From Acidovorax delafieldii (GTDB lineage Bacteria; Pseudomonadota; Gammaproteobacteria; Burkholderiales; Burkholderiaceae_C): DNA of 64,000 bases. Below, in pieces: positions 37,424 to 41,077 of this stretch. The stretch is taken from contig NZ_VJWE01000018.1 of assembly GCF_007993815.1 (NCBI RefSeq), positions 186,001 through 250,000 on the forward strand. The letters are read 5' to 3'. The position numbers were made by a program, and so were the translations under genes. The first letter of the stretch is position 1. The number at the start of each line of letters is the position of its first letter. The notes under the pieces were generated by a model. That model was given only the letters and a program-made list of their open reading frames with translations. It searched no databases and was not told the origin of the DNA.

Positions 37424-40150
37424 TCACTGCCAGCCGTAGCGCCGCACGTACCAGCGCTTCATCACGGTCGTCAGCAGCACGTAGCCCGCCAGAATGCCCA
37501 CCAGCCACGGAAAGTAAGCCAGCGGCAGCGCCTGCAGCTTGAAGTGCCCGGCCAGCGGCCCCATGGGGATGAAGATGCCCACCGCCATGATGAGCACCGT
37601 GGCTGCAAGCAGCGGCACCGAGGCCACGCTTTGCACAAAGGGCAGCTTGGGCGTGCGGATCATGTGCACGATCAGCGTCTGCGTGAGCAGCCCCACCACG
37701 AACCAGCCCGACTGGAACAGCGTCTGCGCCTCGACGTTGTTGGCACCAAACACGTGCCACATGACGGCGAAGGTGGTGATGTCGAACACCGAGCTGATGG
37801 GCCCGAAGAACACCATGAAGCGGCCGATGTCGCTGGGGTTCCACTTCAACGGGTTGCGGATGAGCTCCTCGTCCACGTTGTCAAACGGGATGGCGATCTG
37901 CGACAGGTCGTACAGCAGGTTCTGCACCAGCAGGTGCAGCGGCAGCATGGGCAGGAAGGGTAGGAACGCGCTGGCCACCAGCACCGAGAACACATTGCCG
38001 AAGTTGGAGCTGGCCGTCATGCGGATGTACTTGAGCATGTTGCTGAAGGTCTTGCGGCCTTCCATCACGCCCTCTTCCAGCACCATCAGGCTTTTCTCCA
38101 GCAGGATGATGTCGGCCGCCTCCTTGGCAATGTCCACCGCGCTGTCCACGCTGATGCCGATGTCGGCCGCACGCAGCGCGGGGGCGTCGTTGATGCCGTC
38201 ACCCATGAAGCCCACCACATGGCCGCCCGCGCGCAGCGCGCGCACCAGCCGCTCCTTGTGCAGTGGCGAGAGCTTGGCAAACACGTTGTGGGTGTCGGCT
38301 GCGCGCGCCAAGGTGGCGTCGTCCATGGCGTCCACGTCCTTGCCCAGCAACACGCCCTGCACCGCCAGGCCCACCTCGCGGCAGACCTTGAGCGTCACCA
38401 GCTCGTTGTCGCCGGTCAGCACCTTCACGGCCACACCGTGCGCGGCCAGCGCCTTGAGCGCAGGGGCGGTGGATTCCTTCGGTGGGTCCAGAAACGCCAC
38501 GTAGCCGATCAGCGTGAGGCCCGATTCATCGGCCACGCTGTACACCGTCTGCTGGGGCGGCGTCTCCTTCATGGCCACGGCGACCACGCGCAGGCCCTCG
38601 TTGTTCAGACCGCGCGTCACCTCCAGCACCCGTGCGCGCAGGGTGGCGTCCAGCGGCAGGTCTTGCGCGCCGGTGTCTTCCACCACACGGACATGGGTGC
38701 ACACGTCCAGCATCTCCTCCACCGCACCCTTGCAGATGAGCTCGTGGTGGTCGTTGCGCTCGCTGACGATGACCGACATGCGCCGGCGCACGAAGTCGAA
38801 CGGCACCTCATCGACCTTGCGGTAGTCCTGCGCCAGGCGCAGGTCGGTCTGCAGCTCCACATGCTCCAGCACGGCGTGGTCCAGCAGGTTCTTCAGGCCG
38901 CTCTGGTAGTGGCTGTTGAGGTAGGCAAAGGCCAGCACCTCGTCACTGTTGTGGCCAAACACGTCGGTGTGGCGCTCCAGAAAGATCTTGTCCTGTGTGA
39001 GCGTGCCGGTCTTGTCGGTGCACAGCACGTCCATGGCGCCAAAGTTCTGGATCGCGTCCAGCCGCTTGACCACCACCTTCTTGCGCGACAGCAGCACGGC
39101 GCCCTTGGCCAGCGTGCTGGTCACGATCATGGGCAGCATCTCGGGCGTGAGGCCCACGGCCACCGACAGCGCAAACAGAAACGCCTCCAGCCAGTCGCCC
39201 TTGGTAAAGCCGTTGACCACCAGCACGATGGGCACCATGACCAGCGCAAAGCGGATCAGCAGCCAGCTCACGCTGTTGACGCCTGCCTGGAACGCGGTGG
39301 GCGTGCGGTCGGTGGCCGTGACGCGGGTGGCCAACGTGCCAAAGTAGGTGTGGTTGCCCGTGGCCACCACCAGCGCCGTGGCCGAGCCCGAGACCACGTT
39401 GGTGCCCATGAACAGCAGGTTGGTGGCGTCCAGCGCACTCGTGCCGGGCTGGCTGCGCTCGGCAAATTTTTCGACCGGCAGCGATTCGCCCGTCATGGCC
39501 GACTGGCTCACGAACAGGTCCTTGGCCGTGAGCACGCGGCAGTCCGACGGGATCATGTCGCCCGCCGACAGCACGATGTGGTCGCCCGGCACCAGCTGGT
39601 GGATGGGCAGTTCGCGCGGCGTGGCTGCGGCCTCCGCGCCGCTGCGGCGCAGCACCGTGGCGGTGTTGCTGACCAGCGACTTGAGGCGCTCGGCCGCGCG
39701 GTTGGAGCGGCCCTCCTGCACAAACCGCAGCAGCGTGGAGAGCACCACCATGGCCAGAATCACGACGGTGGCCTCGTGGTCCTCGGTGAGGTACGAGATC
39801 AGTGCCAGCACCGTGAGCAGCACGTTGAACGGATTCTTGTAGCAGTGCCACAGGTGCAGCCAGGCGGGCAGCGGCTTTTCGTGCTCCACCTCGTTGGGGC
39901 CGTGCTGGGCCAGGGCGGCGGCGGCCTGGGCGTCACTCAGACCCGCAGGGTCGGACTGCAGGCGCTCGATCAGTGGGGGCAGGTCATCGCTGGCGGCGCG
40001 CTGCAGCTCGCGGCTGAGCAGGTCGGGCGAGGTGGCGGGGGTGGGCGCGCGGCCCAGGGTCAGCGTGTCCAGGATCAGCCGCCGCGCAAAGTGGCGCGTC
40101 ACATGGCGGGTGTGCAGAAAGCGATCGAACAGGTGGTGCAGGAAGCTCAT
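37424..40150 (-). CDS. mgtA: Magnesium-translocating P-type ATPase MgtA
   Basis: A 908-residue P3B-type ATPase, the normal length for MgtA. The phosphorylation motif is CTDKTGTLTQDKIFLERH, the actuator loop MTGESLPVEKF, the nucleotide region carries KGAVEEMLDVC, and the hinge is MGDGINDAPALRAADIGISV. About ten membrane helices are visible, and FQSGWFVVGLLTQTLIVHMI near the end is typical of MgtA/MgtB. It imports Mg2+ at low external magnesium. In enterobacteria its mRNA leader senses Mg2+, and this gene too is preceded by short ORFs and hairpins (40161-40392). No PhoP box was identified. Confidence 0.95.
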   Translation of the reverse strand: MSFLHHLFDRFLHTRHVTRHFARRLILDTLTLGRAPTPATSPDLLSRELQRAASDDLPPLIERLQSDPAGLSDAQAAAALAQHGPNEVEHEKPLPAWLHLWHCYKNPFNVLLTVLALISYLTEDHEATVVILAMVVLSTLLRFVQEGRSNRAAERLKSLVSNTATVLRRSGAEAAATPRELPIHQLVPGDHIVLSAGDMIPSDCRVLTAKDLFVSQSAMTGESLPVEKFAERSQPGTSALDATNLLFMGTNVVSGSATALVVATGNHTYFGTLATRVTATDRTPTAFQAGVNSVSWLLIRFALVMVPIVLVVNGFTKGDWLEAFLFALSVAVGLTPEMLPMIVTSTLAKGAVLLSRKKVVVKRLDAIQNFGAMDVLCTDKTGTLTQDKIFLERHTDVFGHNSDEVLAFAYLNSHYQSGLKNLLDHAVLEHVELQTDLRLAQDYRKVDEVPFDFVRRRMSVIVSERNDHHELICKGAVEEMLDVCTHVRVVEDTGAQDLPLDATLRARVLEVTRGLNNEGLRVVAVAMKETPPQQTVYSVADESGLTLIGYVAFLDPPKESTAPALKALAAHGVAVKVLTGDNELVTLKVCREVGLAVQGVLLGKDVDAMDDATLARAADTHNVFAKLSPLHKERLVRALRAGGHVVGFMGDGINDAPALRAADIGISVDSAVDIAKEAADIILLEKSLMVLEEGVMEGRKTFSNMLKYIRMTASSNFGNVFSVLVASAFLPFLPMLPLHLLVQNLLYDLSQIAIPFDNVDEELIRNPLKWNPSDIGRFMVFFGPISSVFDITTFAVMWHVFGANNVEAQTLFQSGWFVVGLLTQTLIVHMIRTPKLPFVQSVASVPLLAATVLIMAVGIFIPMGPLAGHFKLQALPLAYFPWLVGILAGYVLLTTVMKRWYVRRYGWQ

Positions 40151-40160
40151 GGCGGTCTCC

Positions 40161-40238
40161 CTAGCAGCAAGCGCTGACGGCGTTGCGCGTCACGGGCAGC
40201 GGTGCCGTGTGCGCAGAAATGTTGATGAAACGGAACAT
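40161..40238 (-). CDS. Short leader ORF immediately upstream of mgtA
   Basis: A 25-codon ORF encoding MFRFINISAHTAPLPV and a tail ending NAVSACC. It has a strong Shine-Dalgarno (AGAAGGAG, about 9 nt before ATG) and ends 10 nt before the mgtA start, so translation of mgtA could be coupled to it. It contains a Pro-Leu-Pro stretch. Its Shine-Dalgarno directly follows a stem-loop (40254-40271) that could occlude or expose it. I know no family for this peptide; it may be a second regulatory leader peptide. Confidence 0.55.
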   Translation of the reverse strand: MFRFINISAHTAPLPVTRNAVSACC

Positions 40239-40253
40239 GGTGAGTCACTCCTT

Positions 40254-40289
40254 CTGGCCAGCACCGGCCAGAGGCGTGAGGCTCACGCC
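40254..40289 (-). promoter_or_regulatory. Two tandem hairpins in the mgtA leader
   Basis: On the minus strand, GGCGTGA-GCC-TCACGCC (40289-40273, perfect 7-bp stem) begins one nucleotide after the stop codon of the MgtL-like ORF. Next comes CTGGCC-GGTGCT-GGCCAG (40271-40254), which abuts the Shine-Dalgarno of the following short ORF. Position and strength suggest a switch that couples translation of the MgtL-like peptide to expression of the downstream ORF and mgtA (inference). Confidence 0.6.
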
Positions 40290-40290
40290 G

Positions 40291-40392
40291 TCACGCGAGC
40301 CATCGCCCCGGGCCCTGGGCCTGGTATGCAAAGTTCAATGGGGATGTGGTGTGGGGCGGCGCTTCGGAGCGCCTGCGCGGGTCTGGGTCCAT
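40291..40392 (-). CDS. MgtL-like Mg2+-sensing leader peptide
   Basis: A 33-codon ORF beginning MDPDPRRRSEAPPHTT and ending GPGRWLA, preceded by a perfect AGGAGG four nucleotides before ATG. Salmonella MgtL begins with the same five residues, Met-Asp-Pro-Asp-Pro, and also has an Arg-Arg-Arg block. In enterobacteria the acidic/proline N-terminus destabilises the ribosome at low Mg2+, changing mRNA structure and allowing mgtA transcription. Here the peptide is longer and the Arg block comes directly after MDPDP. It sits 240 nt before mgtA with a hairpin right after its stop. Identity is inferred from position and N-terminal similarity. Confidence 0.7.
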   Translation of the reverse strand: MDPDPRRRSEAPPHTTSPLNFAYQAQGPGRWLA

Positions 40393-40433
40393 GGGGCCTC
40401 CTGGGTAGTGGTTGCAATACAGGCTGGGCCGGC

Positions 40434-40679
40434 TTAAAGCGGCCGCGCCCGGCGGCGCAATGCCCGCGCAGGCGGCTGGCCATGCAGGTAGCAGCGAATG
40501 CGGTGCGTGGGCCACAACGTGGTGCCGTCAAGTTCGGCCACGGCTTGCAGGCTGTCAGCGGCCCCATGGGCAGGGCCCTGTGCGCCTGAAGGCAGCAATG
40601 CAGCATGCTCGGCGCGTTCAGCGCCAGGCGCCACCGCACGCTGGAAAAGGCGGGGCAGATCCACAACAAAAAAACGCAT
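40434..40679 (-). CDS. Hypothetical 81-residue protein in the mgtA leader region
   Basis: An ORF starting MRFFVVDLPRLFQRAVAPGA, with CAAGGACAA as a plausible Shine-Dalgarno 8 nt upstream. The C-terminus is Arg-rich (RALRRRARPL). I recognise no family. Codon use looks ordinary, but the region is so GC-rich that several frames stay open by chance. It lies 41 nt upstream of the MgtL-like ORF and may be the first cistron of the mgtA transcript, or not a gene at all. Confidence 0.35.
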   Translation of the reverse strand: MRFFVVDLPRLFQRAVAPGAERAEHAALLPSGAQGPAHGAADSLQAVAELDGTTLWPTHRIRCYLHGQPPARALRRRARPL

Positions 40680-41077
40680 GGCCGTTGTCCTTGGCAGGCA
40701 GGGCGGAGCACGCAGACGCAGATGGGCGCCAGGGGGCACCGTCACAGCAGGCGGGACATGCCCCAGCCAAAGGGGCGCGGCCCGTGCAGACGGCACAGAT
40801 GCAGCAAAGCGGCAAGACGGTAAAGCCACCCACACCGCCATGGCCGACGGGGGCGCACGGGGTACAACAGGGGCTGGGAGAGACGGGGCCGGAGCTTGCA
40901 CAAGGCAATCCACGGCCCAGGAGCGGGCGTCAGGAGGCCTGGCAGGCAGCAGCCGTCACGGCTTGCTGGGGTTCACTGCAACAACTGGCACTTTCCACGC
41001 TGGGGCTCCGGAAATGAAGGTGCGCGATTATTGCGCTGCAACATGACGAGGTCAATGCGTTTTTTTGGTCCCGACGG
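40680..41077. other. Intergenic region upstream of the mgtA leader
   Basis: About 400 nt with overlapping open frames on both strands but none with a convincing Shine-Dalgarno or protein character. It probably contains the mgtA promoter. I saw no clear -35/-10 pair and no M-box-like structure. Confidence 0.4.

Follow-up and report, generated by a model that had tools for sequence, protein, structure and literature searches.

The window, a 64,000-nt stretch of the Acidovorax delafieldii genome, carries on its minus strand, on which all features located below lie, a gene for a 908-residue Mg2+-importing P-type ATPase (37424..40150). The product matched TIGR01524 with 1362.9 bits (cut-off 610.75), bearing out the earlier note, which had named the gene mgtA. 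Two short open reading frames (ORFs) precede it. The leader ORF (MDPDPRRRSEAPPHTTSPLNFAYQAQGPGRWLA, 33 aa, 40291..40392, including the TGA at 40293-40291) begins with MDPDPRRRSEAPPH, ends with WLA and follows the Shine-Dalgarno (SD) sequence AGGAGG (40397..40402). Its prolines occur at codons 3, 5, 12, 13 and later, with none at 7 or 9, and codons 1-5 are the part presumed to destabilize ribosomes. ORF2 (MFRFINISAHTAPLPVTRNAVSACC, 25 aa, 40161..40238), which contains AGAAGGAG, starts 52 nt past the leader stop and ends 10 nt before the mgtA ATG (40150); its TAG overlaps the mgtA SD (TAGGGAG).

Several predicted RNA elements overlie these ORFs. Within the leader ORF is hairpin P1 (GGCGC..GCGCC, 40358..40373), the 5' base of which is leader nt 20 (own fold z −1.81). 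Segment A, the tail of the leader ORF (40294..40315), is predicted to pair with segment B (40265..40287) as an antisequestor. Segment B is also the 5' arm of a sequestering hairpin whose 3' arm, segment C (40239..40259), part-buries the ORF2 SD (AAGGAG, 40248..40253). The region from the leader stop to ORF2 folded at −27.9 kcal/mol (z −3.07). P1 and the A:B pairing were absent from the earlier note, which had described the 33-codon ORF with its AGGAGG, two hairpins and a second short ORF ending 10 nt before mgtA; all of these were found in place. Its hairpin 2 is TCTGGCC/GGCCAGA (40272-40253). Its hairpin 1, a perfect 7-bp stem (GGCGTGA/TCACGCC, 40289-40273) 1 nt past the leader stop, occurs as drawn only in the two nearest genomes (L001 and L002) and was rejected as a conserved element; all five own-genus loci share a different stop-codon hairpin.

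Neither the leader ORF nor ORF2 matched a family in Pfam or NCBIfam, and an Rfam scan of the region returned nothing relevant. Rfam RF01056, the mgtA Mg sensor, had no match in the genome; among 14 control genomes, E. coli alone matched. The next ORF upstream (40434..40913), without a Pfam match, carries the C-terminal motif ..LWPTHRIRCYL.. At 14 of the 20 leaders examined for it, in the window's own genus, Delftia, L121 and Variovorax, an upstream ORF closes 34-57 nt before the leader (210 nt in L004) and carries a C-terminal motif resembling W[PTS][TS][HR]R[IV]R; no such ORF was seen at L039, L042, L249, L260 or L171. Given this recurrence, the leader is perhaps intergenic within an operon.

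Conservation of the leader upstream of mgtA

A close mgtA orthologue (at least 82% over the query stretch) was present in 5 of 47 own-genus genomes, and each was preceded by an MDPDP leader with an identical AGGAGG. The first eleven residues of these leaders are MDPDPR[RW]RSEA, and the remainder drifts in sequence and in length (32-42 aa). The RRR of MDPDPRRR, to which weight had been given previously, is RWR in the other three own-genus species. The start and stop of ORF2 and the TAGGGAG overlap are kept in all five loci, and the frame survives a change of length, to 36 aa in one species. The five ORF2 sequences displayed neither synonymous bias nor conserved residues; in the absence of such bias, the reading frame alone appears to matter. 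ORF2 is probably a coupling ORF. We also considered that it may be a decayed MgtE_N-like gene, an idea prompted by its N-terminus only. Three more distant own-genus copies of mgtA (64-70%) were read (L005-L007; a fourth was left out), all without a leader. About 90 nt upstream of mgtA, L005 instead has the 10-residue ORF MPDPEYWPPA, whose SD is weak and which may be a shortened form of the leader within this genus.

Beyond the genus, the survey was anchored on mgtA rather than on the peptide motif; the labels Variovorax, Delftia and Stenotrophomonas come from named records with such leaders. In Variovorax, 54 of 101 genomes held 57 copies of mgtA, of which 48 were preceded by an SD and a short M[DE]P ORF, mostly starting MDPAS or MDPAP. 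An M[DE]P leader, starting MDPDPAGR, preceded 20 of 24 mgtA copies in 51 Stenotrophomonas genomes. Of 52 listed places, 41 were examined as the family sample: G000, G017, G328, G259 and G167 belong to the other sets, and G238, G282, G192, G204, G314 and G151 were left out, as was a second mgtA-like copy of G033 (C86, 66%) from the survey. Four of these 41 further copies had a leader, including a Delftia-type MDPDPSRS, and 37 had none. The conservation of MDPDP or MEPDP, which the earlier note had proposed as a check, is complete in the five own-genus loci and extends to most Variovorax (as M[DE]P) and Stenotrophomonas copies and to Delftia, but does not reach most of the family sample.

We then compared mgtA loci with background sequence. 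Within 1.2 kb upstream of mgtA, an SD-preceded short ORF with at least two acidic residues and at least two prolines in positions 2-6 was found at 19 of 116 loci, defined by at least 60% identity, and was lacking at the other 97. In the remaining 1.48 Mb of the same loci there was a single ORF of this kind, which makes the density upstream of mgtA ∼210 times higher. A 38-nt leader pattern matched four times in 399 whole genomes of the family, three times before mgtA; the reversed control did not match. Looser patterns say little alone since their controls match half as often or nearly so: SD + M[DE]P[DE]P matched 16 times versus 8 for the reversed control (349 genomes of the order) and SD + MDPDP 5 times versus 2 (350 genomes of the class). 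Many of the genome-wide matches resemble chance or coding starts. Overall, the MDPDP leader before mgtA is real and conserved. Among the matches listed in a search of the open-licence literature, no description of a leader of this type in Burkholderiales or Xanthomonadales was found.

The 48 mgtA-anchored Variovorax leaders were analyzed by codon. At codon 2, 46 leaders have Asp and the other 2 have Glu, and all 48 have Pro at codon 3, with several synonymous codons used at both positions; as the set was selected by M[DE]P, the synonymous freedom is the one unconditioned observation at codons 1-3. The fourth residue varies among Ala (35 leaders), Asp (12) and Gly (1), and the fifth between Ser (25) and Pro (23). 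Judged from these residues, the acidic/proline motif is weaker in Variovorax, with Asp4 in 12/48 and Ser5 in 25/48. The pN/pS ratio was 0.70 over codons 4-12 and 0.79-1.12 in the tails, and codon-level conservation of the leader ORF in the larger Variovorax set was limited to the first codons. Of the synonymous-biased substitution suggested beforehand as a check on both short ORFs, there was none in ORF2, and in the Variovorax leaders it was confined to the first codons.

Predicted pairings around the leader stop codon

In most of the leaders folded, the stop is followed by a strong hairpin that has the SD of the next cistron within its 3' arm or adjoining it; this hairpin was not seen in L038, L186, L187 or L174. 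The identity of the next cistron varies: it is ORF2 in the own genus, an MgtE_N-like gene in Delftia, L121 and Stenotrophomonas, mgtA itself in many Variovorax loci and a barrel gene in others, as also in L171. The distance from leader stop to next start was 38-64 nt in the leaders measured, with the exceptions of L038 (224 nt) and L186/L187 (no clear start found). The median unpaired probability of the SD was 0.28 at 36 leader loci versus 0.43 at 55 leaderless mgtA loci (p 2e-6), and the median minimum free energy (MFE) of the region was −27.4 versus −15.5 kcal/mol (p 7e-12), in a comparison restricted to leaders within 100 nt of their assigned next start (thereby excluding L160 and L038) and to leaderless loci with a good SD. 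In L160 the next gene was assigned as mgtA; the same genome also supplied L196, in which a start lies closer, at +57. L149 and L155 were dropped from the next-start folding survey as their next start was not recognised. Ten representatives gave p 1.7e-4 for SD pairing and 9e-5 for MFE; the representatives for this test, and for the stop-spanning and forced-state tests below, were chosen by hand, and a single genus supplied several of them.

A small protein gene with its own buried SD lies between leader and mgtA in L037, L118, L119, L121, L039, L040, L042, L048, L105 and L181. In L121 and L037 its product resembles the MgtE intracellular N domain (PF03448, E 2.6e-5 and 0.0017, respectively, both below the curated cut-off); the Stenotrophomonas gene (L039) had no Pfam match, its MgtE_N likeness being by eye only. 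In the Variovorax loci L091, L093, L199, L202, L206, L239, L249, L259 and L262, the leader is followed by a gene for a barrel-like, probably secreted protein; the two tested had no Pfam match, and "barrel" is a guess. L171 (1510 onward) has an MDPDP leader and an 11-bp RBS-burying hairpin before a gene of this kind; its 3-kb locus contains no mgtA. In L174 (about 1509, minus strand), a MDPDPCSSGSAAARQS leader with an SD lies upstream of an OprB-family porin gene (PF04966, 6.7e-25), and no clear RBS hairpin was found.

Segment B is complementary not only to C but also to A, and the A:B hairpin encloses the leader stop codon; A:B and B:C are thus predicted to be mutually exclusive. Relative to 500 shuffles of the tail, A:B had z-scores of −4.5 in the window, −5.3 in L004, −4.2 in L008, −3.5 in Delftia L037, −3.7 in L091 and −2.8 in Stenotrophomonas L042. 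Other leaders scored more weakly, with about 0 for L152 and L086, and L121 gave +1.2 with a narrow arm and −4.7 in a wider test. Among L001, L004 and L008, the outer part of A:B is built from largely different base pairs, and the hairpin is kept nonetheless. The median z for stop-spanning complementarity was −2.21 in 106 leaders (67% below −1.5; some loci are represented twice), versus 0.10 (8% below −1.5) at 128 ends of open frames of at least 100 codons near leaderless mgtA. Seventeen representatives yielded p 1e-8, although five of them (L093, L186, L187, L039 and L171) had z above −1.5.

When A:B or B:C was forced in 19 leaders, an A:B hairpin occupying at least three quarters of the B arm was obtained in 18, and L143 had no stop-spanning A:B. 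The two forced states lay within 5 kcal/mol of each other in 12 of these 18 leaders and further apart in 6. Segments A and B of the window folded alone at −37.0 kcal/mol (z −4.91). In an unconstrained 80-nt fold of the window, the SD hairpin persisted alongside the inner A:B stem even without ribosomes, and the calculated opening of the SD without ribosomes was clearly above that of shuffled tails in only 7 of 36 leaders. Both results count against the switch; to work, it would need A:B to form first, co-transcriptionally. The search for compensatory change revealed no double changes in two Variovorax subgroups; in a third, A:B had 7 cells in 5 pairs, hardly higher than the up to 6 in 4 of slid controls.

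A hairpin at a fixed place in the leader

P1, as GGCGC..GCGCC or shorter, occupies a fixed place in three genera, where its 5' base falls within nt 19-21 of the leader ORF. With the base allowed at nt 17-21, it was found in 4/4 distinct own-genus heads (0.33 expected from dinucleotide shuffles), 46/47 Variovorax heads (4.87 expected) and 14/14 Stenotrophomonas heads (3.75 expected). It was not above chance in the two Delftia leaders, L121, L038 and L171 taken together (1/5 versus 1.18 expected). In Variovorax, codon 8 is CGC in 47/48 leaders, Ala11 is GCG in 45/46, and codon 7 ends in G in 48/48 despite a varying residue. The apparent peptide motif R8-x-x-A11-P12 thus seems to be largely an RNA feature. 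Two natural frame shifts, in L209 (from about codon 10) and L261 (from about codon 6), abolish the peptide motif and keep P1, which suggests that P1 functions at the RNA level.

When Pro3 occupies the P site, the ribosome's leading edge is presumably at about nt 22, the foot of P1. P1 would then sit at the mRNA entrance and may lengthen the dwell of the ribosome there. In E. coli, EttA-EQ2 is reported to trap ribosomes on mgtL with Pro3 in the P site (PMC11282234). The genome of the window encodes an EttA-type protein (948.3 bits; cut-off 806.75). In the mgtL ORF of E. coli K-12 (L277, 232-285), nt 21-36 can pair into a 5-bp hairpin whose place matches that of P1; the Serratia (L103) and Rouxiella (L108) leaders have no hairpin there.

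A candidate translational attenuator and its relatives

The reading that we favor, at a probability of about two in three, is that the leader is a translational attenuator governed by an ORF on which ribosomes abort. With ample Mg2+, ribosomes would reach the leader stop and cover A and the stop region; B would pair with C, hiding the ORF2 SD, and translation of ORF2 and, by coupling, of mgtA would be low. In low Mg2+, ribosomes would be destabilized on the acidic/proline start and drop off, freeing A. On leaving RNA polymerase, A would pair with B before C is made; the SD in C would remain accessible and mgtA would be translated, in the own genus with ORF2 relaying the effect. Both the response to Mg2+ and the direction of control are inferred, low Mg2+ as the cause of abortion being borrowed from MgtL and MgtQ. 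From the predicted folds, the output looks to be translational, through a buried ribosome-binding site (RBS) as in Salmonella mgtQ, rather than the Rho-type control of transcription associated with MgtL.

A few enterobacterial leaders are known to use intrinsic ribosome destabilization for regulation. Like MgtL of E. coli and Salmonella, the leader described here is a short ORF before mgtA starting M-[DE]-P-D-P, with presumed Mg2+-dependent ribosome drop-off. In MgtL, EPDP is reported to cause the drop-off, with a toeprint at Pro3 in the P site (PMC11282234), completion of the leader represses mgtA (PMC11282234, PMC11552253), and prolines alternate at positions 3, 5, 7 and 9 (PMC6460261). The own-genus leaders differ in having 32-42 codons rather than 17, with a variable tail, in lacking Pro7 and Pro9, in carrying RRR at 2/5 loci and RWR at 3/5, and in the lack of a match to RF01056; moreover, the apparent output is a buried RBS near the leader stop instead of Rho-dependent termination. 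We do not file the leader as MgtL because it departs from the alternating prolines, the RRR and the Rfam model. The system equivalent to MgtL that the earlier note had proposed stands in its leader ORF, SD, hairpin 2 and coupling-ORF start and stop, all conserved, and falls in hairpin 1 and the RRR; an apparently translational output takes the place of the Rho-type control of MgtL.

MgtQ of Salmonella is described as an 8-aa upstream ORF (uORF) between mgtC and mgtB whose Asp2 and Glu5 free the buried mgtB RBS (PMC8092293). The leader shares with it an acidic position 2 and, in MDPDP leaders, a second acidic residue soon after, and a downstream RBS buried in a predicted hairpin. Alternative stem-loops through which aborted translation frees the RBS of a Mg2+ transporter gene may be a further likeness: the competing pairing is predicted in 18 of 19 leaders, and calculated opening of the SD is clear in only 7 of 36 and not in the window's own sequence. 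It differs in being four to five times longer, and in preceding mgtA, an MgtE_N-like gene, a barrel gene or a coupling ORF instead of lying between mgtC and mgtB. Furthermore, segment A is the tail of the ORF itself and the competing hairpin encloses the stop codon. On the attenuator model, zero translation would leave mgtA on, whereas an mgtQ start-codon mutant is reported to be low (PMC8092293). By analogy, the leader would be MgtL-like in N-terminus and place and MgtQ-like in output. In amino-acid attenuators of the trpL type, the position of the ribosome in a leader ORF selects between two exclusive RNA pairings. The likeness lies in this selection; the signal there is tRNA charging and the output a terminator, versus ribosome abortion and RBS occlusion here. 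The CorL uORF of corA also controls a Mg2+ transporter, and its efficient translation represses, but it is reported to have a UUG start, few acidic or proline residues and a Rho output (PMC11552253).

An alternative, which we judge unlikely, is that the same RNA switch responds to the supply of proline or the activity of EF-P, with the progress of the ribosome set by how slowly the prolines at codons 3, 5, 12 and 13 are decoded and not by acidic destabilization. Consistent with this, Pro3 is present in all 48 Variovorax leaders, themselves selected by M[DE]P, whereas Asp4 is mostly lost, and MgtL is reported to respond to Pro codons and EF-P (PMC6460261). By contrast, Ser replaces Pro5 in 25 of those 48 leaders, position 2, part of the selection, is only Asp or Glu, and Pro-Pro occurs solely at codons 12-13, where P1 explains the conservation, L209 and L261 keeping the hairpin without the peptide motif.

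Somewhat less probable still is transcription attenuation as in E. coli mgtL, in which Rho would load at a site uncovered by translation of the leader, leaving the RBS hairpin a secondary role. MgtL of E. coli has the same peptide start, and its published output is reported to be Rho (PMC11552253). However, the spacing of 38-64 nt from leader stop to next start (L038 and L186/L187 excepted) compares with 140 nt in E. coli, the hairpin sits directly on the next SD, and RF01056 is unmatched in the genome. We consider it improbable that the leader and ORF2 constitute a constitutive coupling device that fixes the level of mgtA translation without sensing Mg2+. Such a device would fit the unconserved ORF2 peptide but not the acidic/proline start, kept despite free synonymous change, and two exclusive pairings of similar energy in 12/18 leaders would be superfluous for simple coupling. 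Finally, a chance ORF starting MDPDP in GC-rich DNA, as the merely ∼2-fold excess of the bare patterns over reversed controls might suggest, is taken as refuted by the ∼210-fold enrichment upstream of mgtA and the conservation across genera.

More tentatively, and with the odds somewhat against it, the attenuator may represent a class of Mg2+ sensors widespread in Burkholderiales and Xanthomonadales. In this class, P1 (nt 19-21) would meet the ribosome when Pro3 is in the P site, an mRNA roadblock that times abortion on M-D-P; the stop-codon hairpin would turn abortion into opening of the RBS; and the same module would control mgtA, MgtE_N-like and outer-membrane barrel genes. The fixed place of P1 makes this specific mechanical idea testable. 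A ribosome-destabilization signature with drifting sequence spans several Burkholderiales genera and Stenotrophomonas, and its likely output is translation, not transcription. The leader starts found in nature, MDPDP, MDPAS, MDPAP and MEPAS, with or without P1, provide a test set for the determinants of ribosome drop-off and for the tuning of the response to Mg2+.
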